From Accumulibacter sp. (lineage in GTDB: Bacteria; Pseudomonadota; Gammaproteobacteria; Burkholderiales; Rhodocyclaceae): 49,713 nt of DNA. Each line of letters begins with the position of its first letter. The first letter of the stretch is position 1. The stretch lies in contig NZ_JAMTDQ010000113.1 in NCBI RefSeq assembly GCF_023806635.1, positions 1 through 49,713 on the forward strand, in the 5' to 3' direction. Below the pieces are notes generated by a model. It worked only from the letters and a program-made list of their open reading frames with translations, was not told the origin of the DNA and did not search any database. Both the position numbers and the translations under genes were made by a program. Of the stretch, positions 1,670 to 18,000 are shown one piece after another.

Positions 1670-1882
1670 CCAGGACTGACGACAATTCTGCAGCGCTCCG
1701 GGCTTGCCGGGCTTGCCCCATGCCGCATTGATCGTGGCGCTCCAACCCTGGCGGCCTTATACCCAAAGGCTTCGTAAAAGCCAAAGGGCTGGGAAGGGGG
1801 CAAGGGAATGGGGCCAAGGGGAAAGGCCCTACCCGAAAAGGCCAAAAGGCTCCCCCGAGCAGCCCGACATCCGGGGTTTGCC
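1670..1882 (+). other. Relaxase leader with structured, purine-rich DNA; candidate oriT region
   Basis: This 213-bp stretch between the AbiJ-like stem-loop and the relaxase start has no convincing gene. It holds a compound hairpin at 1762-1788: CCC-AAA-GGCTT, a five-base CGTAA loop, then AAGCC-AAA-GGG. A purine-rich plus strand with several GGGG and AAGG blocks follows. Transfer origins of MobH-type ICEs often lie near the relaxase gene, so this is a candidate oriT, or a structured leader controlling relaxase expression. The assignment rests on position and secondary structure only. Confidence 0.3.
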
Positions 1883-3748
1883 ATGCTCTCGTTGTTCAAA
1901 CGCAAACGGGTGCCGCCCACTGCCGGCGCGCCGCCGACGCACACATCTCCCGCCGAGCCCGGCAAAGGGCTGGTGCGGCCGGAGCCGGCCACATCGTTGC
2001 TGGCGACGCCGCGCCGGCAGAAGCTGCTGGAACACATCTGGCAGCGCACCTCGCTGTCGCGCCGGCAGTTCGCCACGCTCTACCTCGCGCCACTGGAGCG
2101 CTACGCCGAGCTGGTCCAGCAGTTCCCGGCATCGGAAAGCCACCACCATGCCTACCCGGGCGGCATGCTGGACCACGGCCTGGAGATCGTGGCCTACGCG
2201 CTCAAGCTGCGGCAGTCGCACCTGCTGCCCGCCGGCGCCACGCCGGAGACGCAGGCGGCTCAGGCCGAGGCCTGGACTGCCGGCACGGCCTACGCGGCAC
2301 TGTTGCACGACATCGGCAAGATCGCCGTGGACCTGCACGTCGAGTACGCCGACGGCACCGTCTGGCACCCCTGGCACGGCCCGCTGCAGCGGCCGTACCG
2401 CTTCCGCTACCGCAAGGACCGCGAATACAGACTGCACGGAGCCGCTACCGGCCTGCTGTATGCACGCCTGCTTGACGCTGCTATCTTCGATTGGCTCAGC
2501 GGCTATCCCGACCTCTGGGCCTCGCTGCTGTATGTGCTGGCGGGCCAGTACGAACACGCCGGCACGCTCGGCGAACTGGTCGTGCAAGCCGACCAGGCAT
2601 CGGTGGCCCAAGAACTCGGCGGCGATCCAAGCAAGGCTCTGGCAGCACCCCGGCACGCTCTGCAACGCAAGCTGCTGGACGGCCTGCGCTACCTGCTTCG
2701 CGAGGAGTTCAAGCTGAACCAGCCTCAAGCCTCGGATGGATGGCTGACCCAGGACGCGCTGTGGCTGGTCAGCAAAACCGTCTCGGACAAACTGCGCGCC
2801 CATCTGCTGGCCCAGGGCATCGATGGCATCCCATCCAGCAATACCGCGGTCTTCAACGTGCTGCAGGACCATGGCATTGCGCAACCGACACCTGAGGGCA
2901 AGGCCATCTGGAAGGCCACCATCACCAGCGACGCGGGCTGGTCTCATACCTTCACGCTCCTGCGCCTCGTGCCCTCGCTGATCTGGGAGACGGCGGTGCG
3001 GCCAGAACCATTTGCCGGAACCGTGACGGTCGAGACAGTCCTGGACAGCGAGGACGCGCAGTCCTCTATGACTGTAGCAGCCCCTGTTTCGACCCCAGAC
3101 CCTCAGGGTGATGTTGTGGCCGAATCGGTTGCCCCATCAATGAATCCGGCCATGCCTCGTCGGGAGGAAAACGATCCACCGGACGCGATGGAGGACACGC
3201 TGACGATGATCGCTGTAGTGCCAGGTACGGGGCAGCGTAGCGTTGCGCCCGCAGTAGATTCCAAGCCAGAACCATCTGAATTGTCCGCGCCAACACCATC
3301 CCCTTCAGTGCCAGTGGCCACGTGCTCTGGCCGCGTGATGATCACGAACGAACCGTCCGGCGAGCACTTCTTAGCGTGGCTGAAGCAGGCCATCACATCA
3401 CGCCGCCTCATCATCAACGACGCCAAAGCGCTGATACATACCGTAGCCGATACCGCCTACCTGGTCAGCCCTGGAGTATTCCAGCGATACGCACAGGAAC
3501 ACCCGGAGGTGAATGCGTTGGCGAAGGAAGAGAAGCTGCAAGACTGGCAGTGGGTACAAAAACGCTTCGAGAAGCTGGGCCTGCATCGCAAGCAAGCGGA
3601 TGGCTTGAACATCTGGACGTGCGAGGTGACTGGGCCACGCAAGTCAAGGAGGCTACACGGCTACCTGCTTCTTCAAGCCCAATCTGTATTCGGTGACGTG
3701 CCCCCAAACAACCCCTACCTGACACTGGCTGAATCTCCCTCTCGCTGA
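1883..3748 (+). CDS. traI: MobH-family conjugative relaxase (TraI_2 type)
   Basis: The protein has 621 residues from the ATG at 1883, which gives the N-terminus MLSLFKRKRVPP that I remember for this family; an open extension to 1808 looks non-coding. Residues about 40-330 form the TraI_2 domain. Its histidine/aspartate metal site is visible as HHH (87-89), a further His in GGMLDHGLE (98) and HDIGK (142-146). A Pro/Ala/Glu-rich linker of about 100 residues follows. Residues about 490-605 form the TraI_2_C region (GEHFLAWLKQAI onward). This relaxase nicks oriT and pilots ICE DNA in PFGI-1/ICEclc-like elements. It is the only conjugation gene in the window, so the transfer core must lie to the left. 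The defence cargo lies between it and the integrase. Confidence 0.9.
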   Translation: MLSLFKRKRVPPTAGAPPTHTSPAEPGKGLVRPEPATSLLATPRRQKLLEHIWQRTSLSRRQFATLYLAPLERYAELVQQFPASESHHHAYPGGMLDHGLEIVAYALKLRQSHLLPAGATPETQAAQAEAWTAGTAYAALLHDIGKIAVDLHVEYADGTVWHPWHGPLQRPYRFRYRKDREYRLHGAATGLLYARLLDAAIFDWLSGYPDLWASLLYVLAGQYEHAGTLGELVVQADQASVAQELGGDPSKALAAPRHALQRKLLDGLRYLLREEFKLNQPQASDGWLTQDALWLVSKTVSDKLRAHLLAQGIDGIPSSNTAVFNVLQDHGIAQPTPEGKAIWKATITSDAGWSHTFTLLRLVPSLIWETAVRPEPFAGTVTVETVLDSEDAQSSMTVAAPVSTPDPQGDVVAESVAPSMNPAMPRREENDPPDAMEDTLTMIAVVPGTGQRSVAPAVDSKPEPSELSAPTPSPSVPVATCSGRVMITNEPSGEHFLAWLKQAITSRRLIINDAKALIHTVADTAYLVSPGVFQRYAQEHPEVNALAKEEKLQDWQWVQKRFEKLGLHRKQADGLNIWTCEVTGPRKSRRLHGYLLLQAQSVFGDVPPNNPYLTLAESPSR

Positions 3749-4056
3749 TATAGCATATAGCCAAAGGATGGTCGATGACACGACGCGCGGCCTCCAGGAT
3801 CTGGTTGGTCGGCCGACGCCGGCAGATAGCGGCCACGGCCGTCACGCACCAGCAGGCCGACTCGCAGCAGTGATTGCGGAACCGATCAGTGAATTGCCGG
3901 CAGGAGCGATCTTCCGCAAAATCGTCTTGTCGAGGGATGCAAGCAAGGCTGTAGCAATTTAAAATAGCGGGGATGCTTGCCAATATTCTGCTTCTTCGTT
4001 CAGACAGGCTCGCGCTTCGACAAATCACGGTTGCTGCTGAAATTACAAGGAAGAGC
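3749..4056. other. 308-bp intergenic stretch between relaxase and TIR gene
   Basis: I see no convincing gene here. The base composition becomes AT-richer near 3950, marking the entry into the TIR cassette. A minus-strand frame stays open through most of it without a usable start and could be a gene relic. The TIR cassette should have its promoter here. A TAAAAT element lies at 3960-3965, but I found no properly spaced -35 box. Confidence 0.4.
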
Positions 4057-5199
4057 ATGCCCGCCATCTATCAACTTGCAGTGCTTGGTTCGCCAACCGA
4101 TGCCCAGGTTTCTGAGCTTGAAGAAATCGTCGGAACTGCCGTAGGTATGTTCAACTTGCGACTAGGACATGAAGTTGGATGGGAGGTGCGCCCGGAAGGG
4201 TTTAACCCCAACCAACAGCGGTCATCCGCTGCGGTATTTTTCGGGGGTGAGAATCCACCCCTCGGCAATGTGGCGAAGTTGCTGGAGCGAGGCATCCCAT
4301 TACTGCCGATAGCATCCGACGTCAATCGAGTTAACTCAGAGATTCCTGAATTACTGCGGCCTCTCAACTGCTTAGCCTATCACGCCAGCGGTCCACAGCG
4401 TGTCGCGACTGCTTTACTTGAGTGTGCGGGGTTGTTACCTCGCCAGCGCCGAGTATTTGTAAGTTACCGCCGAGGCGAAGCCCGTGAGGCGGCCCTGCAA
4501 CTCTTCGATGCCTTGTCTGCTAGGCTATTCGATGTGTTTCTCGATACGCATGGAATTCCGCCCGCGGAAGATTTTCAAACAATGCTGTGGCATCGCCTTT
4601 GCGATTCCGACGTTCTTGTGATGCTTGACACGCCAGGCTACTTTGAAAGCCGCTGGACAAGTGCAGAGTTCGGACGCGCTCTCGCGAAAGGCATTAGCGT
4701 TTTGCGGGTTGGCTGGCCAGACTGCACGCCATCCACGCGAACAGCCACAGCCAGTCGCGCAGAGTTATTGACCGACGAAGTAGATGTGGCCACAGGACGC
4801 CTAGCTGACAGCGCTGTGGAGCGAATTTGTCTACAGATTGAAGAAGTTCGCAGCCAAAGTCATGCAGTCCGTTCCGTCAATCTGGTGAGTAATTTGCGCA
4901 ACGCTATTCAAACGATTGGCGGCCAACTTGTCGGTGTTGGACCTAACAAGGCAGTCTATATCCAGCTCCCGGACGGCCGGAATGTTGTCGTTTACCCAAC
5001 AGTTGGTGTCCCCACGTCGACCACGTTACATGACGCATCCACCAATTCGCCGGATCAATCGGTGGCTGTCGTTTACGATCACGTCGGTTTGCATCCTCGG
5101 TGGCTGGGGCATTTGGACTGGCTGGGCCAGCATATCCACTCTGCACGGTGGGTCAAAGCCAGCGAGGCTGGGTGGCAATTTGCAGACTGGGAGGCCTGA
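4057..5199 (+). CDS. TIR-domain protein with extra N- and C-terminal domains
   Basis: The product has 380 residues. The ATG at 4057 is preceded by AGGAAG at ideal spacing, so I prefer it over the open start at 3973. Residues 1-128 form an alpha/beta domain I do not recognise. It begins IYQLAVLGS and contains SSAAVFFGGENPP, which suggests a Rossmann-like ligand-binding fold. Residues about 131-222 are a TIR domain: RRVFVSYRRG, FDVFLDTHGIPP, DSDVLVMLDTPGYFES and W200-TSA-E204, placing a Glu where TIR NADases have their catalytic residue. Residues about 270-380 are an uncharacterised C-terminal domain with no membrane segment. The gene heads a three-gene cassette, three bases before the SLOG gene. 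It is probably an NAD-cleaving effector or signal-producing enzyme in phage defence; which of the two is unknown. Confidence 0.75.
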   Translation: MPAIYQLAVLGSPTDAQVSELEEIVGTAVGMFNLRLGHEVGWEVRPEGFNPNQQRSSAAVFFGGENPPLGNVAKLLERGIPLLPIASDVNRVNSEIPELLRPLNCLAYHASGPQRVATALLECAGLLPRQRRVFVSYRRGEAREAALQLFDALSARLFDVFLDTHGIPPAEDFQTMLWHRLCDSDVLVMLDTPGYFESRWTSAEFGRALAKGISVLRVGWPDCTPSTRTATASRAELLTDEVDVATGRLADSAVERICLQIEEVRSQSHAVRSVNLVSNLRNAIQTIGGQLVGVGPNKAVYIQLPDGRNVVVYPTVGVPTSTTLHDASTNSPDQSVAVVYDHVGLHPRWLGHLDWLGQHIHSARWVKASEAGWQFADWEA

Positions 5200-5202
5200 A
5201 TC

Positions 5203-5790
5203 GTGAGTGCAATCTTCCTTTCAGCTAGCGTTCCACTTGTCGGCCGCGGCTCGTATCACGAAACTGCCAATCCATTCCTCATCCAATGTGCTGTGAGGGA
5301 ACTGGTCATAGCCGTCATTCGTCAGCACAAGATCGTGTGGGGAGGACATCCCGCTATCACGCCCATGATTTGGAGCATTTGTGAAGATTTAGGAGTTGAT
5401 TATTCTGGGTCCGTAGTTCTGTATCAGAGCAGGTTCTTCGAGGATCGTTACCCGGAAGAAAACGACCGTTTTCACAATGTTGTCTTCACCGACGCAGTTC
5501 CCGATGACAGAGATGCCAGCCTGCTGTTAATGCGGGAAAGAATGCTGTCGCGCGATGATCTCGTTGCCGCTGTTTTCATCGGCGGCATGGAAGGAGTGGA
5601 AGCCGAGCATGAACTCTTCAGGCAATTCCATCCCGCCGCCAAAGTTCTACCCGTACCGTCGCCAGGTGGAGCAGCCTTGAACTTGGCCAAAGATCAAGGC
5701 TATTTCGCCGATGCGGATCTTGGTGATGTGGACTTTGCGCAACTTTTTCACACGCACCTCGCATTGAACATTCAAGGTGCAGTGAGCTGA
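5203..5790 (+). CDS. Stand-alone SLOG-family nucleotide-ligand-binding protein
   Basis: The 195-residue product starts at GTG 5203, with GGAGG at 5189-5193 inside the end of the TIR gene. Only three bases separate that stop from this start, so translation is probably coupled. The whole protein matches the SLOG fold as I remember the 'SLOG cluster 3' type: IFLSASVPL at the start, IVWGGHPAITP (44-54), YQSRFF, VAAVFIGGMEGVEAE (121-135) and PSPGGAA (152-158). SLOG domains bind nucleotide or ADP-ribose-derived ligands; in Thoeris the SLOG part of ThsA senses the ThsB product. Here it is not fused to an effector, which is unusual. I infer it is the sensor or regulatory subunit for the flanking TIR proteins. 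Confidence 0.75.
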   Translation: MSAIFLSASVPLVGRGSYHETANPFLIQCAVRELVIAVIRQHKIVWGGHPAITPMIWSICEDLGVDYSGSVVLYQSRFFEDRYPEENDRFHNVVFTDAVPDDRDASLLLMRERMLSRDDLVAAVFIGGMEGVEAEHELFRQFHPAAKVLPVPSPGGAALNLAKDQGYFADADLGDVDFAQLFHTHLALNIQGAVS

Positions 5791-5831
5791 ATCTCCTCTG
5801 CCGATTCACACGAGCCATCAAAGGATTCGTC

Positions 5832-6317
5832 ATGCCACGGAAAGTCTTCTATAGCTTTCACTATCAACGCGACAGTTGGCGCGCCTCCAAGATACGGAAT
5901 ATTGGTGTTGTGGAGGGTAACCAGTCGGCAAGCGATAACAAATGGGAAGAAGTGAAGCGAGGCGGCGAAGCCGCAATCAAGCGCTGGATTGACGATCAAT
6001 TGCAAGGACGGATATGCACAATTGTTCTGGTCGGCGCCGAAACGGCGAATCGCCCCTGGATTCGATATGAGATTGAGCAGTCATGGAATAGTGGCAAGGG
6101 ACTCTTGGGGATACGAGTCCATAAGCTGCTGGACCACAACCAACAACCATCAGTTGCCGGGGCTAATCCGTTTGACTCATTTACCTTGAACGACGGTAGA
6201 AAGCTATCCACCGTCGTCCGCATGTACGATCCACCGGGGGCCACCAGCAGCGCGGCCTATAACCACGTCAGTGACAACCTGTCGGGCTGGATTGAAGCGG
6301 CGATCGCTGCTCGCTAG
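5832..6317 (+). CDS. ThsB-like TIR (MTH538/DUF1863-type) protein
   Basis: The 161-residue protein starts at ATG 5832, with AAAGGA just upstream and 41 bp after the SLOG stop. It is a single TIR-like domain of the kind seen in Thoeris ThsB: KVFYSFHY (4-11), then NIGVVEGN, CTIVLVGAETANR (62-74) and W76-IRY-E80. That last motif carries the Glu expected for catalysis. The C-terminal 60 residues (NPFDSF onward) are typical of this subfamily. By family analogy it would make a signalling nucleotide from NAD when it senses infection. Its neighbours are a SLOG protein and a second, larger TIR protein rather than a canonical ThsA, so this is at most a rearranged Thoeris system. The gene ends 16 bp from the convergent UDG-like gene. 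Confidence 0.8.
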   Translation: MPRKVFYSFHYQRDSWRASKIRNIGVVEGNQSASDNKWEEVKRGGEAAIKRWIDDQLQGRICTIVLVGAETANRPWIRYEIEQSWNSGKGLLGIRVHKLLDHNQQPSVAGANPFDSFTLNDGRKLSTVVRMYDPPGATSSAAYNHVSDNLSGWIEAAIAAR

Positions 6318-6333
6318 GAAGCCAGGCCTCTCG

Positions 6334-6996
6334 TCAAAACAACGACCCAGTGCACATGGGGCGCCCATAGAGCTCCGAGATTTGCTTCTGGAACTGGGTC
6401 TGTCCTCCGTAGCTAGGATGCCTTACGCAAATCACCGGTACGGAATCCGTGATGCGATGGGCCGCAGCGGCGGCATCGTTACCGATGGCGACGATGCGAG
6501 AGGGGCGTAGCAGGACGATGAGCTGTTGGAGCAGTTCTTCGCCGGCTCGCCTCTCACGTGCGTTGTGCTGCCGGTTGGTGAAAGGATCTCCTGATTCATG
6601 CGGATGAAGAGGGAAGACGTTCCAAAGGAAGATGCGAGCATCAATGTGTTCCAGCATGCCCCATATGACCGCTGCGGTTCGCTCGGCTACAGCACCGCCT
6701 GTCGTCGGCCGCTCGACGACCTGGTCGAGATTCCAACGCTTAACGTGCTGGCTTATGTGAACGTCGTCGGTCAGGGCTAACCCAGTGCGGCGCCCCCCGC
6801 GGTATCCGAGGTCTCGTCCGATCCATATCGCGTCTACGGGTTCCTCGCTTGCACGACGCAACATGGCAGAGAGGGCGGCGGCACGACGACGCGGTGCGTC
6901 GCGCCGATCATGAACTACACAACGATCAGAATACGGATTGAAGCAGTCTTCGAACTGCAGCGAAGCAACTGCTTCAACGAATGGGTGGATTTTCAT
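6334..6996 (-). CDS. Uracil-DNA glycosylase superfamily protein
   Basis: The product has 220 residues. Motifs read in order as a UDG-type fold: AIWIGRDLGYRGGRRTGLAL (57-76), in the position of the active-site GxDP-type loop; WNVFPLHPHE (125-134); RIVAIGNDAA (167-176); and RHPSYGG (192-198), the HPS-type DNA-binding loop. The usual catalytic Asp/His pattern of the first motif is altered (GRDLGY), so the substrate may not be plain uracil. The start ATG overlaps the stop of the MazG-like gene in an ATGA, which means translational coupling. It is the last gene of the long minus-strand operon. With Nmad2 and MazG-like neighbours I infer a role in recognising or removing modified bases, perhaps from phage DNA. 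The class is clear; the specificity is unknown. Confidence 0.7.
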   Translation of the reverse strand: MKIHPFVEAVASLQFEDCFNPYSDRCVVHDRRDAPRRRAAALSAMLRRASEEPVDAIWIGRDLGYRGGRRTGLALTDDVHISQHVKRWNLDQVVERPTTGGAVAERTAAVIWGMLEHIDARIFLWNVFPLHPHESGDPFTNRQHNARERRAGEELLQQLIVLLRPSRIVAIGNDAAAAAHRITDSVPVICVRHPSYGGQTQFQKQISELYGRPMCTGSLF

Positions 6997-8129
6997 TTTT
7001 CAGACCCAAGTGGCATGTATTTGATGGTGCGTTGTTCTCGATTTCCAATGATCCAGCCACCTTGATTTGCCTTGAGTTGGCGAAAAACGGCATACCCCTC
7101 CAGGATTGCCTTTTCCCAGAGCTTCAGCGGGCATTTTTCAACTTCGTAACCATTCACAAACTCACCAATGGTCTTGAGAATCCCAAGTGAAACCTTTTCC
7201 TGGTTCTCGAAGAAATTCAACTCCTTGGCCCTGGAGAAAATCCAGGCCGCAACCCCTTCTTCAACGACGATGGCCCGACCACTGTCCTGCTCTTCATCGT
7301 ATTTCGAATTGCTCTTTCGCTTGTGCTTGATCAATGCCCGCATCACAGGCGACCAGTGCAAGATTGCTGCATAGGCAAAGTGAAAAACGTCATGGAACCG
7401 GTAGCCATCATGGTCGGCAATGTTGTCGGTCAGAGGGTCACCAATGAATACACCCTTCCATTGGAGATAACTTTTGCCACTGCCTCGTTGGTTGACCCGG
7501 ATCTTGAAGTCTCTGGGGAGCTGTTCTTCGATTCCAAATTCACTGTCGAAATCAAGGCCGACCAGATCATCAGCCTGCGGCTCCATGAACGCGCCGCGAG
7601 CTTTCCGGAGATTGCCGCGAGCCACCTCAGAGAACGCAAGTTCGGCCGCATGAATTGCGTCCAGATAGGCCCGTGCGAAAACAATCAAATCGGTGCGAGC
7701 AGGTGGGCTTCCCAGTAGTGTCGCCGCTGACTGCCCCAAACGTACCAAGGTGGTGTCCAACGAAGCAGTCGCTGCGACAGGCACAGCGATGTAGGCCAAC
7801 GCACCTTCCGTGATGTCACTTGCCGCGCCCACATTCTTGAAGTTGCCGTGGTTTGCTGCTTCTGCGAAGATCTCTTCAAGAGGAATCTGCAAGCGCCTGC
7901 AGATTGCAGCCAAATACCATAGCGTGTCGCCAAACTCTTCCTCTGCCGCTTTCTTGAAACCAGGGTAGGCCGTTTTCTCCCGGACATGCTTTTTGGCCGT
8001 AGCCATTATCCCGCCGACTTCTCCGTAGAGACCTTGGAGGACAGGATTGAAGTCATTCGGATTGAGCACGTCTGTGGCTGCAATTTCTGCAGCGTAGTCC
8101 GAAAGTAAGAGAGAGCCTTCCTTTTTCAT
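6993..8129 (-). CDS. MazG-like nucleotide pyrophosphohydrolase with C-terminal extension
   Basis: The protein has 378 residues. Residues about 25-95 resemble the MazG helical bundle: GLYGEVGGIMATAKK (33-47) and EEEFGDTLWYLAAI (63-76). The ExxD pair (E65, D68) is present, but the first metal motif reads GEVGG where GExGE is usual, so one acidic ligand appears to be lost. Residues about 200-370 form a second domain like the MazG_C region. It has a conserved DHDGYRFHDVFHFAYAAI (237-254) rich in Asp and His, then an EEGVAAWIF segment. MazG enzymes hydrolyse (d)NTPs to monophosphates. The start lies three bases after the Nmad2 stop and the end overlaps the UDG-like gene. The C-terminal His/Asp-rich domain may carry the main activity. 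Confidence 0.7.
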   Translation of the reverse strand: MKKEGSLLLSDYAAEIAATDVLNPNDFNPVLQGLYGEVGGIMATAKKHVREKTAYPGFKKAAEEEFGDTLWYLAAICRRLQIPLEEIFAEAANHGNFKNVGAASDITEGALAYIAVPVAATASLDTTLVRLGQSAATLLGSPPARTDLIVFARAYLDAIHAAELAFSEVARGNLRKARGAFMEPQADDLVGLDFDSEFGIEEQLPRDFKIRVNQRGSGKSYLQWKGVFIGDPLTDNIADHDGYRFHDVFHFAYAAILHWSPVMRALIKHKRKSNSKYDEEQDSGRAIVVEEGVAAWIFSRAKELNFFENQEKVSLGILKTIGEFVNGYEVEKCPLKLWEKAILEGYAVFRQLKANQGGWIIGNREQRTIKYMPLGSEK

Positions 8130-8132
8130 CGA

Positions 8133-8759
8133 TCACCTGCGAAGAGTCAGCCATTCGAATGGTGCGCCCTGATAACCACCCACGTCAAAGCTACGAATCC
8201 ATTGTTCAAGGTTTACAATCAGTTGTGCATCGTCAAAGGTGGTTAGGCCTATTCCAGTTTTACATAGAGGGCGGCCTTGCTGGTCTTTCAGTTCTTCGGG
8301 AAACTCTGGCCCCGCTCCTCCAAAATACACAAAATCATTGCTGATTAGAACCCTGTTGACCCCCGTATCGCGGGCGACATGGTCAGGGTTGAGCGAGCCA
8401 TCGGTGCGGGAGTGAAATGAATCGCGCTGCTGCCAGGCGGCCCCTGGCGCGGCCCTGAAGTAGATATTGTCCCCACAACTTTGCTTCCGACTGCCATTGC
8501 GGTACGGCTTCTTGGATTCAAACCGTGGATCTACGCCATATTCGTCAAATGTCATCGCCTCGGTGACACGCATCGCGTACACGAGATGCCCACCTCGTCG
8601 AACAGTTCGATCATTACTGCCGCTGCCGACTACCCAGTCACCGATGTCAGCGCCTCGGCGGATACTGGGTTTGCAGGTCGCAAGCGTGCAGTATCCGTAG
8701 AAGGGATTGGGTGCGAAACCACTGTCGTACCGCACCACGTAGGAGTGAATGCGCGCCAT
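8133..8759 (-). CDS. Nmad2-like nucleotide-modification-associated protein
   Basis: The 208-residue product matches the Nmad2 (nucleotide modification associated domain 2) family as I remember it: SYVVRYDSGFAPNPFYGYCT (6-25), then KPSIRRGADIGDWVVGSG, HLVYAMRVTEAMTFDEY and FVYFGG further on. Nmad2 proteins are known mainly from gene neighbourhoods with DNA- or nucleotide-modifying enzymes. Their biochemistry is not well settled, and a ligand- or modified-nucleotide-binding role is inferred. The start codon shares its A with the stop of the TIR gene (TGATG), and the MazG-like gene follows three bases after its stop. The three genes are therefore tightly coupled. Confidence 0.75.
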   Translation of the reverse strand: MARIHSYVVRYDSGFAPNPFYGYCTLATCKPSIRRGADIGDWVVGSGSNDRTVRRGGHLVYAMRVTEAMTFDEYGVDPRFESKKPYRNGSRKQSCGDNIYFRAAPGAAWQQRDSFHSRTDGSLNPDHVARDTGVNRVLISNDFVYFGGAGPEFPEELKDQQGRPLCKTGIGLTTFDDAQLIVNLEQWIRSFDVGGYQGAPFEWLTLRR

Positions 8760-9226
8760 CAGCAGGGATGCCGCTTGAGTGGAACCGGGGCGCAGGCGCC
8801 GCCGTCAGGATTTTCCCACGAGTCCTTCCCGTTGATCGCATCAATGATTGCATCACCATTCCAACCGACCAATGCATCGGCATATTCTTTTAGTGCATCT
8901 GGAAGTTCACACTCCTTCTCGCCATGCTCCCAAACACCAACAATACGCTTACCCTGTTTGGCCGCATATTCGATTTCCCAGTTCACCCAATCGCTGTCCT
9001 TGGTCTGAGGGGAAACGTAGCAAATGAACACTCCAGCCCAGTTGATGGCAGGCGCGAGGATCTGCGTCTTTATGTAGTGCTCATCTGTAGCATTGTTGAA
9101 TTTTCCTGTATGGATGGAGGAATCCCTGATTTCCATCCCCTTTGGAGCCAACAGATCCTTGAGCTTTTGGAGCCCGCGATCGTCCTTATGGACATGGCTG
9201 ATAAACATATTCCTTTTCTCTGTCAC
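8759..9226 (-). CDS. TIR-like (DUF1863/ThsB-type) protein coupled to the restriction operon
   Basis: The 155-residue protein is a single TIR-like domain: NMFISHVHKDD (6-16), GVFICYVSPQTKDSD (65-79) and W80-VNW-E84, which places a Glu at the catalytic position of TIR NADases. I chose the GTG at 9226 over the ATG at 9208. A strong GGAGG lies six bases upstream of the GTG, and the GTG overlaps the res stop in a GTGA. A C-terminal tail of about 40 residues contains Cys145 and Cys155. TIR proteins of this class make NAD-derived signals or deplete NAD. Its position at the head of the Nmad2/MazG/UDG genes suggests it is either the sensor or the effector of that module. Confidence 0.78.
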   Translation of the reverse strand: MTEKRNMFISHVHKDDRGLQKLKDLLAPKGMEIRDSSIHTGKFNNATDEHYIKTQILAPAINWAGVFICYVSPQTKDSDWVNWEIEYAAKQGKRIVGVWEHGEKECELPDALKEYADALVGWNGDAIIDAINGKDSWENPDGGACAPVPLKRHPC

Positions 9227-12200
9227 CTGTCACCTCCAAAGTTTTCACATGGTTTGAAGATCGTAGCCGCTTCTGCTAAAAGGTCGACGACAGAACGTTC
9301 TATCACGTAGCGCGCCGGATTCTCGCCGACCGCCAGGGCATGGAAATGCGCCTTGCCGCATTCGATCTTGGCGTTCTCCTTGTCGCGCAGGTCGTCGGTG
9401 AACAGACTGCTCTTGGTCTCCACGACGAAGTACAGGCGCTGCGTGCCGTCCTGCTCAACCAGTACCGCCCAGTCGGGGTTGTAGCTACCAAGCGGCGTCG
9501 GCACCTTGAACCAGCCGGGCAGTTTGGCGTAGAGCTTGATGGCTTCGTTCTTCTCCATCGCGTCGGCAAAGTCGCGTTCGGTGGTGGAGTCGTACACGAC
9601 GTGCTCGTAGATGGACTTCTCCGTGTCCATCAGCATGTTCTTGAGGTAACCGGTCAGCTCTTCCTGATCGAACAGTTCCTGGGCGTAAAAGTGGTCGTCG
9701 CCCAATTTCTGGTACTTGATACCGTCGACGAGCGCCAGCCGTTTGCAACGGTTGATCGTCTCCGCAGCGAGTTCAATGAACTGCTGCGGATTGCGCTTGA
9801 AGTCGTCCAGCCGCCCGCTGCCAGTCAGGATGCTTGTGATGGTGCGACGGGTAAGCTGGGTGCGATCCTGCAGGTCAGTAAGCAAGTCTGGAAGCTCGAT
9901 ATCCGACTCGTCCAGGACGACAGTTGCCGCGCCAGCTTTCTCTGTAGCCTCCACGCCTGCCTTGCCAATGGCGATGTCGGCCTTGCGCCACTGTAGACGC
10001 GCTTTTGCGATAGGCGGGGCCTTCTGCAAGGCGGCGATGCAGTCCGCCACCAGCTTTGCATTGTCGAAATGAACGCGGTATGTCGTCTGGTGCTTGATCC
10101 GATCCCACAGCGCCTTGAACTCGTCGCTCAGATAGATGGCTTTGCCTTCTTTGTCCTTGCGCAACGGAACCTGCTGGCGCTCGTCGGCGTTCTTGATTTC
10201 CAGACGGCCCGACACCTTGCGCAGCACCTCGGCGATCTGACTGCGCTGCGCGTCGAACTCCGTAGGTAGCGCAAGCGTTCCATCTTTTAGCGCAGTCTTC
10301 AGCGAGTCCTGCACCTTACCCTTTGCATCGATGTGGCCGGCGGCTTTCAGGTGCTCCCACAACGCCTTCGATCGATCAACGCCCAGAGGCACGGTCTGAC
10401 CGCCGGCGCCGGTAACGGCGATGGCGGCGAACTGGTGCTGCTCGACGATGCCAAAGCGGATGCCGGTATCGGCCTCGATTTCCTTCTGCAGGTTCTCGGC
10501 GAATTGCTCGTAATTCTCGGTCGCAATCACGGTCAGCGTATTGACCTCGAAACCACGCACCCGCTCACCGTGCTGGTTCACACAGAGACGCAGTCCACGA
10601 CCGATGGTCTGGCGGCGCTCGCGCTCGGTCTGAATGTCGCGCAGCGTGCAAATCTGGAACACGTTGGGGTTGTCCCAGCCTTCCTTCAGCGCAGAGTGGG
10701 AGAAGATGAACTTCAGCGGCGTCTCGAAAGCCAGTAGCTTCTCCTTCTCCTTCATGATGAGGTTGTAGGCACGCTCGGCGTTCTCACGGTTGCCAGCGGT
10801 GTTTTCGCTGGTGTCGGTCCAGCCGCCTTTCTTGTCGATGGAGAAGTAGCCGTTGTGGACTTCCTCGGCGGCACTCGCCAGGTCGATTTCGCCGAACAAA
10901 CTCTGATAGGCGGGCAGCTTGGCCGCGCGACGATATTCCTCTTCGAAGATGCGCGCGTAGTCGCCCTTCACCGGATTGCCATCGGCATCGTACTGGCGGT
11001 ACTTGTCCACTGCGTCGATAAAGAACAGCGACAGCACCTTGATCCCGAGCGGGCGCAGCCGCTTCTCCTTGTCGAGATGTTCCTTGATGGTGCGACGGAT
11101 CATTTCCCGCTGCACGGCTAGGGCGTCGACGTCGCCGTGGGCTTGGCCTAGCTTGAGAAAAGCCTCGCCGCCGGGGAAACGCAGCTCCAGAAACTCTTCG
11201 TCCTTGGCGGTATTGATCTCGCCTACGCGGAAATCGGCGTAGATCGGGCGCTTGGTGACCTGTTCCAAGTCATCGCCATCGGAAACGGTGAGTTCTTGTC
11301 GTTTCACGCCGCCTGCCGTTGCCACGTCGAGTTCCACGCGGGCAGAGATCGTGCCACGACGGCTGGCCACCGAAACCAGCCGGACAAACGGCTTGTTATG
11401 GGCATCCTCCACTGTGGCCGAAGCGACCTCGATCTGCTTCACCAGCTTGCGCTCGTAGGCATCCACGGCATCGAGGCGGAACACCATGTGGTGCTTGTCC
11501 ACGTGGGTGGCGGAATAACGCAGCGTGCACAGCGGATTCATCGCATCGAGCGCGGTCTTGCCCGCGCCCGTCAGGCCGCCGTCCACGCTCTGCGGCTCGT
11601 CGACGATCACGACGGGCCGCGTCGCTTTGATCAGATCGATAGGCTTCTCGCCGCCGGTCTTTTCGCTGTCCTTGTAGAGGTTGTTGACGTCCTTCTTGTT
11701 GATGGCCCCGACCGTGACCACCATGATCTGGATGTTCGAGCTGGTAGCGAAGTTGCGCACCTGGCCGAGCTTGCTGGAATCGTAGAGGAAGTAGTCGAAG
11801 GGTACGCCGGCATAGAGCCCCTTGAAGTGCTCCTCGGTGATCTGCAGGGTCTTGTAGACGCCCTCCTTGATCGCCACCGACGGCACCACGATGACGAACT
11901 TCGAGAAACCATAGCGCTTGTTCAGCTCGAAGATGCTGCGCAGGTAGACGTAGGTCTTGCCGGTACCGGTTTCCATCTCGACGGTGAAATCGCCCGAGAC
12001 AAGCATGCCGGAAGGTGGCAGACCGCCACGCAACTGGATGTCGGCCAGGTTCTGGTGCAGCTCGTCGTCCAGCAACGTGAGGCGATTGCCGACCCCCAAA
12101 TCGGACTCGGCAACACCCAGCGTCATTTGCTGCGGCACGGTGCCGGGGGACATATCGTCGGCAGTGGCGGGCGGCGCCTTCATCGTCACCGTGAATTCCG

Positions 12201-12294
12201 TGCGACATACCTCCTGGCCACGGAACAGGTCGCAGACGGCCTCGATGGCTTGCAGCTGGTAGTCGAGATTGGGCTCGAAGTGCAGTTTCATCAT
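9223..12294 (-). CDS. res: Type III restriction endonuclease, Res subunit
   Basis: The start is one of two adjacent ATGs (12294 or 12291), seven bases after the mod stop, with GAGGG upstream. The product has 1023 residues, usual for Res. Superfamily II helicase motifs are visible: ETGTGKT (108-114), the DEPQ variant of motif II in VIVDEPQS (232-235), and the arginine-finger region GRGLRL. The C-terminal nuclease has the PD-(D/E)XK pattern YNPDWAVLV then YFVVETKS (about 940-961). With Mod it cleaves DNA after ATP-driven communication between inversely oriented unmodified sites. The 3' end overlaps the downstream TIR gene by four bases (GTGA). Catalytic motifs look intact. Confidence 0.93.
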   Translation of the reverse strand: MMKLHFEPNLDYQLQAIEAVCDLFRGQEVCRTEFTVTMKAPPATADDMSPGTVPQQMTLGVAESDLGVGNRLTLLDDELHQNLADIQLRGGLPPSGMLVSGDFTVEMETGTGKTYVYLRSIFELNKRYGFSKFVIVVPSVAIKEGVYKTLQITEEHFKGLYAGVPFDYFLYDSSKLGQVRNFATSSNIQIMVVTVGAINKKDVNNLYKDSEKTGGEKPIDLIKATRPVVIVDEPQSVDGGLTGAGKTALDAMNPLCTLRYSATHVDKHHMVFRLDAVDAYERKLVKQIEVASATVEDAHNKPFVRLVSVASRRGTISARVELDVATAGGVKRQELTVSDGDDLEQVTKRPIYADFRVGEINTAKDEEFLELRFPGGEAFLKLGQAHGDVDALAVQREMIRRTIKEHLDKEKRLRPLGIKVLSLFFIDAVDKYRQYDADGNPVKGDYARIFEEEYRRAAKLPAYQSLFGEIDLASAAEEVHNGYFSIDKKGGWTDTSENTAGNRENAERAYNLIMKEKEKLLAFETPLKFIFSHSALKEGWDNPNVFQICTLRDIQTERERRQTIGRGLRLCVNQHGERVRGFEVNTLTVIATENYEQFAENLQKEIEADTGIRFGIVEQHQFAAIAVTGAGGQTVPLGVDRSKALWEHLKAAGHIDAKGKVQDSLKTALKDGTLALPTEFDAQRSQIAEVLRKVSGRLEIKNADERQQVPLRKDKEGKAIYLSDEFKALWDRIKHQTTYRVHFDNAKLVADCIAALQKAPPIAKARLQWRKADIAIGKAGVEATEKAGAATVVLDESDIELPDLLTDLQDRTQLTRRTITSILTGSGRLDDFKRNPQQFIELAAETINRCKRLALVDGIKYQKLGDDHFYAQELFDQEELTGYLKNMLMDTEKSIYEHVVYDSTTERDFADAMEKNEAIKLYAKLPGWFKVPTPLGSYNPDWAVLVEQDGTQRLYFVVETKSSLFTDDLRDKENAKIECGKAHFHALAVGENPARYVIERSVVDLLAEAATIFKPCENFGGDR

Positions 12295-12301
12295 CGAACC
12301 C

Positions 12302-14227
12302 TCACAGACTGCGCACGTTCTGGATGCCGTGCTGCTCCAGGATCGCTGCGAGATTGGTCTTGGCCACGTCGTCGGCAAAGGCGCTGTCACGGAACACGCA
12401 GGTTGTGTCCCCAGCAGGCGCGAGTTCTTCGTGCCAGGCGACGATGCCTTGCGCCAGCAGCTCTACATCGTCGAGGGAAATGCTTTCGGCGAGGCAGGCC
12501 ATCAGCACGCCGCTGCCCACCGAATACACGTAGCGGCCCGCGATCGAGCGCTTCTCGATCGGCACGCACAGGTCGAGCCCCAGCTTGAGCAACAGCTCGT
12601 AGAGGATGTCCGACTCAGTACGGCCGTCCACCAGATGGTCCTGGTGGGCAAACAGGGTGTGCTCCAGATCGGCTGGGTTCGGGCTCCAGGCGCGGATGTT
12701 GGAGGTGTCGAGTTTGAAGACACGGAAGCCGGTGTCGCCGGTGAACATCGGATTGTCGGCTTTGATCTTGGCGGCAGCGCGACGCAGACGCTCCTTGGTC
12801 AGTTCGGCGATAGTTCTGGGTTTGCCAAGCTTGTCGCAGAAGTCCGCAGCCACTTTTTGATCTGCGGTCGCTGGATCCAGTGGCTCCGGAAGTTGAACCA
12901 ACACGAATCGTCGACTACTTGAGTCCGCAGCGTTTCGCAGAAAAGTTGCGTGCCCAGTCGTTCCTGAGCCAGCAAAAAAATCGAGAACAATGTCCTCCGC
13001 TTCCGCAGCCTGCTCGATGAGGCTAGCTACCAAGCCAGTTGGCTTGGGAAAGGAAAATACTCCCGGTCCCAGAAGGCTATTGACGTCTCTTGTTCCATCT
13101 GCGGTGCTGAATTCCGTAATAACCGAGCTCATGTTCTTATAAAGGCTCCGCATTTCATTCAAGAACAGCTTGTGACGTGGCCGCCCGTCACCATTCGAAG
13201 GGAACAAGATCCTCCCTTCAGTGATCTTCTGGGACATCGTCGATTTTTCGTAGCGCCACCCCTTCGGTGGGCAACCGTAATTGATGCCCGTTTTCGGGTC
13301 GATCAGATCGTAGTGGAGGTTGGGGCGAGACTCTTTCGTGGCTAGTCCAGTTAGATCAGCACTTCGCCACGGCCCCCTCGGATCGTCATCTGGATTCGAA
13401 AACTTCTCTACATCCTTTTCAGATCCACGAAGTGCAACTTGATCGCCGCGTGAATAGCAAACGACGTACTCATGGTCAGTAGAAACGCCCGTTTTCGCAC
13501 GAGTGTCTTCACTCACCCGAGACTTCCATACGAGCTGTGCAACGAAATTTTCTTCGCCAAAAACGTCATCGCACAGTCTGCGTAGATTCTCCGCTTCGCC
13601 GTCATCAATGCTGACAAATATGAAACCATTGTCCTTCAATAGGTTTCGGGCCAGCTTCAACCGCGGATACATCATGTTTAGCCAGTCAGTATGAAACCGC
13701 CCGCTGGCCTCGGTGTTGCTGCTGATTTTCTGCCCGCCTTCGACCTGCCCGGTGAGCTCCAGATAGTTCTTGATGTTGTCCTGAAAGTTGTCCGGGTACA
13801 CGAAATCCTTGCCGGTGTTGTACGGCGGATCGATATAGATGAGCTTGACCTTGCCCGCGTAACTCTTCTGGAGGAGCTTGAGCACCTCGAGGTTGTCGCC
13901 TTCAATCATCAGGTTCTGGGTGCTGTCCCAATCCAAGCTTTCATCCGGGCATGGGCGAAGCGTGCCGTTCGAGGGGGTGAGCGCTAGTTGCCGCGCGCGG
14001 CGCTTGCCATGCCAGTTGAGGCCATACTTTTCGTCGGCATCGGTAACGGTTGCATCGCCGACCAACGCTTTGAGTACTTCCACATTGACCGCTGCGCCGT
14101 TTGGTCCTTCGCTGATCAACTCAGGGAATAGGGCTTTGAGCTGGGCGATGTTGCCGGCCACCAGATCAGCGGATTGGGCCTCGGGGCTGGTCGCTTCAAG
14201 TTTTTGCATATTCTTTTCCATCGTCAT
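12302..14227 (-). CDS. mod: Type III DNA methyltransferase, Mod subunit
   Basis: The protein has up to 641 residues. In-frame ATGs at 14227, 14221 and 14209 are all possible starts and none has a strong ribosome site. The order of motifs is that of beta-class adenine methyltransferases: DPPYNT (133-138, motif IV) comes before DFFAGSGTTG (416-425, motif I, SAM binding). The variable target-recognition region lies between them, at about residues 200-390. Mod sets site specificity for both methylation and cleavage. That central region (about 12950-13680) is visibly AT-richer than both flanks, as if a recognition domain had been swapped in. DUF4391 lies 11 bp upstream and res seven bases downstream. 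Confidence 0.92.
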   Translation of the reverse strand: MTMEKNMQKLEATSPEAQSADLVAGNIAQLKALFPELISEGPNGAAVNVEVLKALVGDATVTDADEKYGLNWHGKRRARQLALTPSNGTLRPCPDESLDWDSTQNLMIEGDNLEVLKLLQKSYAGKVKLIYIDPPYNTGKDFVYPDNFQDNIKNYLELTGQVEGGQKISSNTEASGRFHTDWLNMMYPRLKLARNLLKDNGFIFVSIDDGEAENLRRLCDDVFGEENFVAQLVWKSRVSEDTRAKTGVSTDHEYVVCYSRGDQVALRGSEKDVEKFSNPDDDPRGPWRSADLTGLATKESRPNLHYDLIDPKTGINYGCPPKGWRYEKSTMSQKITEGRILFPSNGDGRPRHKLFLNEMRSLYKNMSSVITEFSTADGTRDVNSLLGPGVFSFPKPTGLVASLIEQAAEAEDIVLDFFAGSGTTGHATFLRNAADSSSRRFVLVQLPEPLDPATADQKVAADFCDKLGKPRTIAELTKERLRRAAAKIKADNPMFTGDTGFRVFKLDTSNIRAWSPNPADLEHTLFAHQDHLVDGRTESDILYELLLKLGLDLCVPIEKRSIAGRYVYSVGSGVLMACLAESISLDDVELLAQGIVAWHEELAPAGDTTCVFRDSAFADDVAKTNLAAILEQHGIQNVRSL

Positions 14228-14238
14228 TCGTTCGATAT

Positions 14239-15045
14239 TTAAAGCTGTTGGCGCGCGGAGGCCAGTTCGGCCAATACACGCTTGAGCGCAAGGTTCAGTT
14301 CCACCTGTCGCGCCAGTTGTTTTTCTTTCGCCGCCAGCGTGCGCAAGCGGGTCGCCTCAAGTTCCAGACGTTCGCATTCCTGCAGGGCCTGGCGGCGCGC
14401 AGCGGCCTGTTCGGGGCTGTCAGCCGCCTTGAAGTTTCCCGTCAGCCTCGCCGCCAACAAGGCCTGCACGCTATCCATCCAGCCCTGATACAAGCCAAAC
14501 AGTGTCGCCTGAGGCTGGCTGGCCAGGGACAGGGCAGACGTGAACGCGCGGAGTACATCGGCAGACGGCGCATCGTCTGGCAGGGATGCGGACACCACAC
14601 CACCGTCCAGCACGACCTTGCCGGCCTCGTTCTGCGCCCAACGCTTGTGCGCCAGCGACAGCGTTAGGCGCTGCCCGGTGTGAAGCAGCAATAGCACCGG
14701 ATACGGCACTGCGCGATGCAAAAGTTCGGTGAGGCGGACTGCATTTGGGGGTTTGGCCTCCCCTTTGTCGGATGCGCCGCGCAGCGTCAAGGTAAGCACG
14801 GCGATCTCCAGGTACTCGCGCAGGTCGTCGCGGTAGTCGGATACGCCTACGGTGGTCGGCTTGAGCGCTGCCACCCACTGGATTTCTTCTATACCCTCAT
14901 TGATCAGGCGTTTGTCGGCCGCCGTGGGCGCGCCGTTCTCCAACAGTAGCTTCTTCGGTACGCGCTGATCGACCCGGCAACCGTCAGGCAAGCCCAATGC
15001 CAGGATGATGTCTTGCGCCGCCAACGTCGGCCCCCTCTTGTTCAT
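14239..15045 (-). CDS. DUF4391 family protein
   Basis: The 268-residue product matches DUF4391 as I remember it, a family often found next to SNF2-like helicases and type III Mod/Res genes. It starts MNKRGPTLAAQDIILALGLP, and the N-terminal half is globular (VPKKLLLENGAPTAADKRLI at 29-48). The last 60 residues are a likely coiled coil, with dense Glu, Arg and Leu. No catalytic motif is evident. The ATG overlaps the helicase stop in an ATGA. I infer a structural or adaptor subunit that links the helicase to the Mod/Res complex; this has not been shown. Confidence 0.7.
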   Translation of the reverse strand: MNKRGPTLAAQDIILALGLPDGCRVDQRVPKKLLLENGAPTAADKRLINEGIEEIQWVAALKPTTVGVSDYRDDLREYLEIAVLTLTLRGASDKGEAKPPNAVRLTELLHRAVPYPVLLLLHTGQRLTLSLAHKRWAQNEAGKVVLDGGVVSASLPDDAPSADVLRAFTSALSLASQPQATLFGLYQGWMDSVQALLAARLTGNFKAADSPEQAAARRQALQECERLELEATRLRTLAAKEKQLARQVELNLALKRVLAELASARQQL

Positions 15046-18000
15046 GGGGTATCGACCTCGGCCAGGACCACCAGAAAGGCCAGCACCTCGAAGTCGTTGC
15101 TGCCGGCGAACTCGCCCTTGATGGCGTGGGTGCCGCCCGGCGAAAAGAGGCTGGCCACCGCCCTTTCCTCGTTCTTGCCGACGACCGAAGCCACGCTTGC
15201 TGCGAGCAGCTTTTGCGCGCGGCGCATGTCCTCGCCGTGCTTGGTGACCTTGTCAAAACGGGCGCAAGCGCCAGCGTCGGGTAGCTCCCGTCCCAAAGCC
15301 AGACGTTTGAGGCGGTCGAGAACGCGTTTGGCTTGCGTATAGGGCAGCAGCACAGTCCCGTCATCGCCCACGTGAACGAGGTAGTGCGGTGCCAACGGGT
15401 AGTCGGACTCCTTGGCCTTGCGCGCCGCCGGCCCCTCGGCGCGCAGGCAGAAGATGACGCCGGGCGGGATGTCGGCGTCGATGGTGGTGGTGACCGCGTA
15501 GGCGCCCAGCGGCTGGTTGTCCAGTTTGCCGGGATGCGCCTTGAGGTACTGGGCCAGATCGATACGGAAGTCGGTGAGTGTCAGATCGGTGATCGAGACA
15601 CCGGTGGACAGGTCTTCCAGATCGATGACCGTATCCTGCAATTTGAGCAGTTGCTTGCGCCGGTACTCCAGATCGTTCATCGGGTTGCCGGACTGCTGCT
15701 CGATGAGGTTTTCCTCGCCAGTAGCGGAAACATCCAGCAGCACCATCCGTCCGCTTACGCGTTGCTCCAGGTTGATGTATTCCTCCAGCTCGATGTTGGG
15801 CCAGAAGTTGACCAGCTGGATGCGTTCGTTTGGGGAGCCGATACGGTCGATCCGGCCGAAGCGCTGGATGATGCGCACCGGATTCCAATGGATGTCATAG
15901 TTGATTAGCCAGTCGCAGTCTTGCAGGTTCTGGCCCTCGGAAATGCAATCCGTGGCGAACAGCAGGTCCAGCTCGCCTTCGGTGGCCAGTTCGGCTGGGC
16001 GTTCCTTGGAGCGTGGCGAGAATGTCGTGAGGATGGATGCCAGATCCTTGCGCAAACTCGGCAGCGTGCTTTGGTTGCGACCGGAGCCGGTGACCAGCGC
16101 CGATTCGATTCCGAGCGTGGTCTTGGCCCACGGCGCCAGCTGCGCGTAGAGGTACTCGGCGGTGTCGGCGAAAGCGGTGAAGACAATGATCTTGCGGTTG
16201 CCCGCGTTGATCGGGCTGCGGCACTTGTTCTCTATCATGTCGCGCAGGGCGGTCAGCTTGGCGTCTCGCGCGGAATCGACTTGCATGGCCGCTGCGAGCA
16301 GCGTAGCCAGTCGGTTGCGATCTTCAACCAGATCCTGCTTCCAGCGAATGAGGTCAACGTCACTGAGCAATACCTTGACCTTTCGTCCGACCAGTAGGGT
16401 CTCAAACTCGGGATCGTCGATGTCGACGTCGGCGATGTCGATTTCCTCAACGTCGTCAGCATGCGCTTCGATATGCGCCAGCGTGGCCTCTACATCCCGA
16501 AGTTGGCGCTGGACGGTGAGCGTGAAGGACGACACCGCGCTTTCCATGCGCTTGAGCACGTTGACGCGCAGGAGATGGATCAGGCTCTCTTCGCGGTCGA
16601 CTTGGCGGAAGTAACTTTCGCCGCCGCGGATTTGAGTGCTGTACTTCGCGTCATAGGCTGCCTGCTTGTGCGGCAGGACGTAGCGCAATGGCGCATAGCT
16701 GGCCAGATTAAGCCGCCGGATTTCGAGGTTGATGTCCCGGATGCTACGGAACTCGCCGGCACGGTCAACATCGGCCTTGATGTTGATCGGCGGCAGACGA
16801 TCCGGGAAGCGGCCCGTCTCGCCGGTGCCGTAATACTTCTCGATATGCCTGCGCGAGCGGGCGATGGTGAGGTGGTCAAGTAGGGTGAAATAGTCGAAGC
16901 CCAGCATCTCGACCAGTCTCGCAGGCGTTTTCTCGGACTCGTCAAGGTTCAACCACCGGTTGAACTGGGCCTGCGCCTTGCGGGTGGTTGCCTCGATGCT
17001 GGCAATGCCGTGCTCCAGCAAGGCGGTGTCGTCGCCTTCCGTGACGAAGGCGATCTGGTTGCGCAGATCGGCGAGGCGGTTATTGACTGGCGTGGCCGAA
17101 AGCATCAGGACGCGCGTCTTGACACCCTCCTGGATGATCCTGCGCATCAGCCGGTCATAGCGGGATTCCTTGCCCTTGTGCGTGGCCTTGTTGCGGAAGT
17201 TGTGGGACTCATCGATAACCACCAGATCGTAGTTGCCCCAGTTCACGTGCGACAGGTCGATGTCGCCGGACGTGCCGCCGTCGCGCGAGAGGTCGGTGTG
17301 GTTCAGGACGTCGTAATTGAAGCGATCGGCCGCCAGGACGTTGCGCTTATCGTTGGCCTTGTACAGCGTCCAGTTGTCGCGCAGGCGCTTGGGCGCCAAT
17401 ACCAGCACGCGGTCGTTGCGCAGCTCGTGGTACTTGATGATCGCCAGGGCCTCGAAGGTTTTGCCGAGGCCAACGCTGTCGGCAATGATGCAGCCCCCGA
17501 AGCGGTTGAGCTTGTCAATGGCGCCCACCACGCCATCGCGCTGGAACTTGAAGAGCTTCTTCCACACCACCGTATTGCGGATACCTGTGGCGGACTTGAC
17601 GATGCGCTCCTCGTCCATCTCGTCGCCGCTGTCGCGAAACAGGTGATGCAGGATGAGCGTATAGAGGGTGAACGGATCGCGGTGCTCACCCATGGCGCAC
17701 AGGGCTTGAATCAAGGCGCTGCGGGTGTCGGGTTGACGGGGCATGGCCGCCCACTGTTGTTCGAGCCACTTGGCAAGTTGCGTGGCTTCGTCAGCGGATT
17801 CGGATGCCTGGATCAGGCTCATTGGATTACCGGGAGTCAGCCCGAGGCCATCGGTGCTGAAAGCGAATGAGCCCAACACGACTTGCGCGGGCGTCGCGTC
17901 GGAATTGCGCATTACCGCTGCCCCCTGAGGCACCGGCCCCAACGCCCGGCGCAACTCGACCTTGTCGGTGATCCACTTCGCGCACTGGTTTGCCAACCAA

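Follow-up and report, generated by a model that had tools for sequence, protein, structure and literature searches.

Gene content of the locus

The stretch of DNA analysed here, called the window throughout, comprises positions 1 to 49,713 (49,713 nucleotides) of contig NZ_JAMTDQ010000113.1 from Accumulibacter sp., and the element in question is a module of four minus-strand genes that encode a ThsB-type TIR protein, an Nmad2 protein, a MazG_C protein and a member of the UDG superfamily (Table 1). The initial annotation, made from the sequence of the window, had described these genes as overlapping or nearly touching, and the open reading frames (ORFs) bear this out: the TIR and Nmad2 ORFs share one base (TGATG), a 3 bp gap separates Nmad2 from the MazG_C gene, and the MazG_C and UDG-like ORFs overlap at ATGA. 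All four products match Pfam families above the curated cut-offs, namely ThsB_TIR for the TIR protein (2.7e-22), PF18753 for Nmad2 (1.4e-73), MazG_C for the third protein (1.5e-82) and PF03167 for the UDG-like protein (1.3e-7, 32.2 bits against a cut-off of 24.3). Among the PADLOC models the TIR has a full-length ThsB match (PDLC00418, 304.6 bits), and Nmad2, the MazG_C protein and the UDG-like protein have none; in NCBIfam, the TIR of the module finds no match at E values up to 1.

Table 1. Features of the window in and around the four-gene module
Feature	Position	Strand	Properties
TIR protein, ThsB-type	8759-9226	minus	155 aa; catalytic-type Glu84; conserved C-terminal Cys155; start codon GTG
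Nmad2 protein	8133-8759	minus	208 aa; predicted PUA-like (ASCH/EVE/YTH-like) modified-base reader
MazG_C protein	6993-8129	minus	378 aa; N-terminal all-alpha NTP-pyrophosphohydrolase (dimeric dUTPase-like), C-terminal MazG_C domain
UDG-superfamily protein	6334-6996	minus	220 aa; motif GRDLG; Asn126 and His193 kept
Conserved leader of the four-gene operon	9226-9267	minus	GGAGG precedes the GTG start codon of the TIR; res extends with its 3' end into the leader
ThcB4, type III Thoeris TIR protein	3973-5199	plus	NCBIfam NF058526, 480.7 bits against a cut-off of 220; candidate partner
ThcA, SLOG cluster 3 protein	5203-5790	plus	NCBIfam NF058525, 258.9 against 110 bits; Pfam LD_cluster3 2.8e-80
Second ThsB-type TIR, Thoeris set	5832-6317	plus	Pfam ThsB_TIR 5e-28; PADLOC PDLC00433; without Cys tail
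res	9223-12390	minus	restriction gene, judged outside the module
mod	12302-14227	minus	restriction gene, judged outside the module
DUF4391 gene	14239-15045	minus	restriction-operon gene, judged outside the module
SNF2/ResIII-type helicase	15042-18239	minus	restriction-operon gene, judged outside the module

Conservation and co-divergence of the four genes

The module was sought in one genome per species, which gave 543 Nmad2 relatives, and the best 80 loci were kept, a sample that is thus biased to close kin. Gene calls were ORF-based, and the profiles for TIR, Nmad2, MazG, UDG and effectors were built from the same loci; totals of TIR-bearing cases vary with the thresholds used (95 in the count of C-terminal tails, 92 in the count of enzyme genes and 76 of 80 in the locus counts). 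All four genes are present in 64 of the 80 species loci, so the order noticed in the window is conserved elsewhere, and the spacing of the junctions often equals that of the window. The remaining loci hold TIR, Nmad2 and MazG (8), TIR and Nmad2 only (4) or no TIR (4: L091, L107, L109 and L111), and some of these partial sets are cut by contig ends. Counted per Nmad2 gene, the full set is found in 66 of 82, since two loci (L078 and L080) carry two Nmad2 genes each.

The four proteins have also diverged together, with pairwise distances correlated at r 0.83-0.94 (77 to 103 loci per pair), whereas the distances of ThcA from the neighbouring Thoeris set correlate with those of the four module proteins at just 0.29-0.41 (37 loci). 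The four genes are thus one evolutionary unit, and the Thoeris set is a frequent, exchangeable neighbour. Chance co-location in a defence island is ruled out by the conservation in 64 of 80 loci together with the r of 0.83-0.94. The four-gene module is real, widespread and coherent, and Pfam, conservation and co-divergence together confirm the earlier view that a TIR is joined here to three families linked to nucleotides or modified bases. By crude ORF calls, 38 of 67 loci have a same-strand ORF as the nearest one upstream of the TIR, and in 30 it lies within 100 nt.

On plasmids, the TIR of one relative (L119) matches 11 records, all within the 17 records that carry Nmad2; the window TIR as query gives 34 further records, which among the matches listed are weak hits to other TIRs. 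A phage origin of the module genes was considered and rejected: tblastn searches of 50,697 phage records gave no match for Nmad2 or UDG and one weak match for MazG, and a scan of viral contigs gave 7 Nmad2 loci.

Three loci (L029, L078 and L080) have a doubled arrangement, in which two divergent TIR-Nmad2 pairs stand back to back with a P-loop kinase-like gene between them, and one pair is followed by MazG-UDG.

The cysteine tail of the TIR protein

Glu84 of the TIR, which we take to be the catalytic residue, is kept in the window protein and in 92 of the 95 TIR partners encoded next to non-redundant Nmad2 genes. The C-terminus is conserved more strictly still, as all 95 partners have a cysteine within their last five residues, which is the very last residue in 62, and C155 is invariant in TIR alignments of 18 and 35 sequences. 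Three TIRs (L108, L120 and L178) have lost the catalytic Glu and keep the Cys tail (3/95), and three further partners that are too divergent for the TIR profile (L118, L123 and L166) likewise end close to a Cys. Control proteins encoded in the same loci rarely or never do so: a Cys in the last five residues is found in none of 26 TIR3, 30 ThcB4 and 31 ThcA proteins, and in 7/74 UDG, 2/87 MazG and 4/108 Nmad2 proteins. Weak TIR hits end near a Cys in 7 of 26 cases. Three of these are Nmad2 partners already counted, and the other four belong to a second TIR subfamily with the tail YNRQC (L095, L100, L104 and L162), so that ThsB-like TIRs beyond the module may share a C-terminal Cys. Cys-bearing tails are also found in several, not all, of 30 Nmad2 proteins without TIR. 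Taken together, the tail looks tied to the function of the module rather than to NADase activity as such. A metal site to which the tail Cys would contribute along with Cys24 and Cys29 of Nmad2 was considered as one possible role.

The TIR partner of Agrobacterium vaccinii (L179), where a metallophosphoesterase gene lies between Nmad2 and MazG-UDG, has no Pfam family match and keeps a KRNKC tail.

Nmad2 as a candidate reader

The AF2 model of Nmad2 has a pLDDT of 94.7, and its leading fold matches are PUA-like (ASCH/EVE/YTH-like), with weak scores and a consistent family. Known readers with a PUA-like fold bind bases within nucleic acids. Given the PUA-like model, albeit with weak scores, a role of Nmad2 as a modified-base reader is better grounded.

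Nmad2 genes without a TIR occur in other settings. In two loci (L134, at about 8.0-16.5 kb, and L135) such a gene lies inside a CRISPR-Cas type I-C-like operon, between cas4-like and cas1-like genes, as judged by the sequences of the neighbours alone, and in four others (L131, L132, L136 and L137) it stands beside Nmad3-type proteins, a family for which Pfam (PF18754) was run on L131 alone.

Enzyme genes that accompany the core

The N-terminal part of the MazG_C protein matches the fold of all-alpha NTP-pyrophosphohydrolases (MazG/dUTPase); the fold matches cover mostly residues 2-187, and none assigns the MazG_C domain. The metal motif of these pyrophosphohydrolases is ExxE...ExxD. Its second Glu is replaced in the window protein and in 86 of 90 relatives, and the ExxD half is kept, which makes a plain hydrolase doubtful, because one canonical metal ligand is missing. 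The initial annotation suggested, as one reading, that Nmad2 and MazG recognise or hydrolyse modified nucleotides; recognition by Nmad2 gains support from the PUA-like model, and ordinary hydrolysis by MazG is doubtful.

GEAPG is the motif of UDG family 4. The window protein has GRDLG in its place and falls outside this family (TIGR00758, 14.1 versus 125.3 bits). R61, D62 and L63 of GRDLG are found in 76 of 77 relatives, and Asn126 and His193 are kept in the same proportion.

The enzyme genes next to the core are not always the same. They were counted over 125 non-redundant Nmad2 genes, with both L029 Nmad2 genes entered under the same enzyme set, and the names HMUDK_hel, thymidylate synthase, TylF-type methyltransferase and those of the effector domains come from Pfam runs on representatives. 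A TIR accompanies 92 of the 125, and these are joined by MazG and UDG (70), MazG and HMUDK_hel (9), sets with thymidylate synthase (6: L030, L115, L126, L127, L128 and L177), MazG alone (2), HMUDK_hel alone (1) or none of these (4). Nmad2 genes without a TIR have none of these enzyme genes in 23 of 33 cases. UDG and HMUDK_hel occur together in no locus above the thresholds used, that is, they alternate. The thymidylate synthase homologues carry a PC motif, which presumably corresponds to the catalytic Cys of thymidylate synthase, and L128 also carries a dCTP-deaminase-like protein (PF22769). Motif reading had suggested an HhH-glycosylase-like fold for HMUDK_hel, for which a profile search of the PDB gave aquaporin noise alone. 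By annotation, most of these enzymes have pyrimidine nucleotides or bases as substrates, so the TIR-Nmad2 core seems able to work with more than one kind of pyrimidine chemistry.

A convergent type III Thoeris set and nearby effectors

A plus-strand Thoeris set that the initial annotation overlooked is convergent with the module and ends 16 bp from the UDG gene. ThcA and ThcB4 are equivalogs of type III Thoeris, both above their cut-offs, and 30 of the 80 species loci have genes of type III Thoeris no more than 9 kb away. When neighbours of SLOG type (ThcA, SIR2-STALD, patatin-SLOG and SLOG cluster 2) or patatin type are scored as effectors, one is found nearby in 59 of 76 TIR-bearing and 1 of 4 TIR-less loci of the best 80. 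In taxon-sampled genomes, from which 35 regions were fetched and 33 scored (two lacked a scored Nmad2), 10 of 13 TIR-bearing regions have an effector within 9.5 kb, versus 1 of 20 TIR-less regions (Fisher p 3e-5); some of the 33 come from one genome (G691). This association supports the view that the TIR makes a signal for a shared effector.

Several points call for caution here. The effector profiles were learnt from Nmad2 neighbours in mostly TIR-bearing loci, islands of this kind are rich in effector-type genes anyway, and related loci are non-independent, with three of the 33 regions (L124, L161 and L163) repeating loci of the 80. ThcA is close by in the window, but it does not co-diverge with the TIR of the four-gene module.

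A Cupriavidus plasmid (L027) carries, next to a longer ThcA/ThcB4 pair, fragments of another such pair at 12737-13574. In the window, a TraI_2 relaxase/helicase-type gene (1808-3748, plus strand), as in conjugative elements, adjoins the defence genes.

Proposed mechanism and its alternatives

The reading that we favour, with confidence a little short of even, is that the four genes move and evolve together as a Thoeris-like sensor arm with a SLOG-type effector nearby. Nmad2, as a PUA-like reader, would recognise a modified pyrimidine base or nucleotide and would form a functional unit with the TIR, to which it is coupled in translation, probably via the C-terminal cysteine tail of the latter. 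On sensing, the TIR would cleave NAD+ and make a signal for the nearby SLOG-type effector (ThcA in the window), which may then stop the infected cell. The UDG-like protein would act on the base in DNA, and the MazG_C protein on the nucleotide.

Two close rivals of the sensor arm assign other tasks to the enzymes. One of them, which we regard as possible although unlikely, is restriction-modification without a nuclease: the enzymes would mark the DNA or nucleotide pool of the cell itself with a modified pyrimidine that Nmad2 reads, and the TIR would be freed when invading DNA lacks the mark or carries it in the wrong place. The alternative enzymes, namely HMUDK_hel, a TylF-type methyltransferase and homologues of thymidylate synthase, are anabolic, and thymidylate synthase and HMUDK_hel fit such self-marking better than the destruction of foreign bases; thymidylate synthase and 5hmU kinase domains are also found in validated defence systems (PMC13092281). 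The enzymes of the window itself (MazG_C and UDG), however, include no recognised base-adding enzyme. In a fuller version of this scheme, again an outside chance, the enzymes would set a pyrimidine mark that Nmad2 checks, and a TIR bound via a reactive Cys tail would answer a wrong mark with an alarm signal made from NAD; the core would take varied chemistry cassettes (MazG_C with UDG, MazG_C with HMUDK_hel, or thymidylate synthase sets) as well as varied SLOG effectors.

The other close rival is the proposal of the initial annotation that the module attacks modified phage DNA, with MazG_C destroying modified dNTPs, UDG excising modified bases and the TIR as a back-up killer. The UDG and the precedent of Brig1 speak for attack: Brig1, of the UDG superfamily, excises alpha-glucosyl-hmC and protects alone (PMC11078745), the window UDG family keeps Asn126 and His193 almost without exception, and the N-terminus of MazG is dUTPase-like. 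Thymidylate synthase and HMUDK_hel, on the other hand, are not expected to destroy bases, and the MazG motif lacks one ligand in nearly all relatives. We give this proposal a similarly low chance.

A guard of the nucleotide pool appears less probable again. Here the enzymes would process (deoxy)uridine or modified dNTPs, Nmad2 would bind a nucleotide, and a phage-driven change in dUTP or dTTP would trigger the TIR. The enzyme sets, which include a dUTPase-like domain, thymidylate synthases and the dCTP-deaminase-like protein, and the P-loop kinase-like genes with a GPDGVGK motif near the second TIR-Nmad2 pair of L029, L078 and L080 are in line with this, but PUA-like readers bind bases in nucleic acids and UDGs act on DNA.

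The restriction genes next to the module

The module stands in the window directly beside a restriction operon, as res overlaps the GTG start of the TIR via GTGA, and the initial annotation had proposed a functional coupling between the two. A homologue of the window's res lies within 6 kb of the module in 2 of the 80 species loci; the test was aimed at homologues of the res and mod found in the window, not at every restriction family. The DNA similarity to loci that lack this res likewise stops just upstream of the TIR start. Eleven hand-picked loci were compared with the window by blastn, and nine of them (L037, L041, L042, L043, L044, L048, L050, L053 and L124) have other flanks; these represent eight species, because the sequence of L124 is the same as that of L044, and L043, L044 and L048 give the same match to the window. 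Each of the nine shares one block with the window, at about 4040-9267, with the Thoeris set inside and res and mod outside. On the TIR side the block ends at 9265-9269 in eight of the nine and at 9225 in the ninth, and on the Thoeris side at 4037-4066 except in L042 (3852). The other two loci are L070, with a short match alone (8307-9212, 76.5%), and L039 (Coralloluteibacterium), the sole one of the eleven that shares res besides the block, with res and TIR adjacent as in the window.

The operon-like coupling thus looks like a junction effect, since res extends at its 3' end into the block's leader, and the restriction genes look like a chance neighbour. That the module serves as a back-up for the type III restriction system with which it would share an operon is highly improbable and largely refuted by the comparative data: the GTGA overlap and the adjacency in Coralloluteibacterium would suit it, but a res homologue is near in just two loci, of which L070 has it on the opposite strand, and the mobile block ends just upstream of the TIR. 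A WYL-domain regulator (18252-19160, minus strand) lies directly upstream of the helicase, DUF4391, mod and res genes and likely regulates that restriction operon.

Comparison with known systems

If the sensor-arm reading is true, the trigger of a bacterial TIR would be the chemistry of DNA or nucleotides and not a phage protein, and Thoeris signalling would be linked to the recognition of modified bases, a separate theme until now. The alternation of UDG, HMUDK_hel and thymidylate synthase, and the cysteine tail, offer concrete points for testing, and the analysis also removes a link to the restriction operon that was attractive but looks mistaken.

A search of a literature collection found no description of a TIR-Nmad2 unit and no named defence system with the composition of the module, as the initial annotation had supposed, and it gave one close paper, DefensePredictor (2026, PMC13092281). 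That work reports validated Escherichia coli systems with thymidylate synthase and 5-hydroxymethyluracil kinase domains, and dNMP kinase and NMAD are among the abbreviations in that panel's legend, which does not assign them to particular systems. Its Fig. 6F shows predicted, unvalidated systems with NMAD, MazG, MazG-C, UDG and aGPT-Pplase, and the paper cites Burroughs 2015. The main text of the paper contains no word beginning with TIR and no Thoeris (PMC13092281). Judged by text and legends rather than by gene composition, these candidates share the domain vocabulary of the module, and the same four genes may already be drawn in a figure of that paper.

The module is probably a variant of TIR/Thoeris-type defence, whose most unusual features are the probable modified-base reader and the conserved cysteine tail. 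With Thoeris it shares a TIR of the ThsB family, the SLOG-type effectors often found nearby and, in the same block, ThcB4 and ThcA; it differs in that its TIR forms a unit of its own with Nmad2, MazG_C and UDG. Type III Thoeris does not seem to be the home of this TIR, which has no NCBIfam Thoeris match and co-diverges with its own module and not with ThcA. Type III restriction-modification (mod/res) is adjacent in the window, yet its linkage to the module is not conserved. Brig1, likened here by its description, has the UDG superfamily and the defence context in common with the module, but it protects alone (PMC11078745), whereas the UDG of the module is one of four proteins and alternates with HMUDK_hel. 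As in EVE/McrBC modification-dependent restriction (PMC7641849), a PUA-like modified-base reader would be coupled to an effector, which in the module is a TIR and not a nuclease or GTPase.

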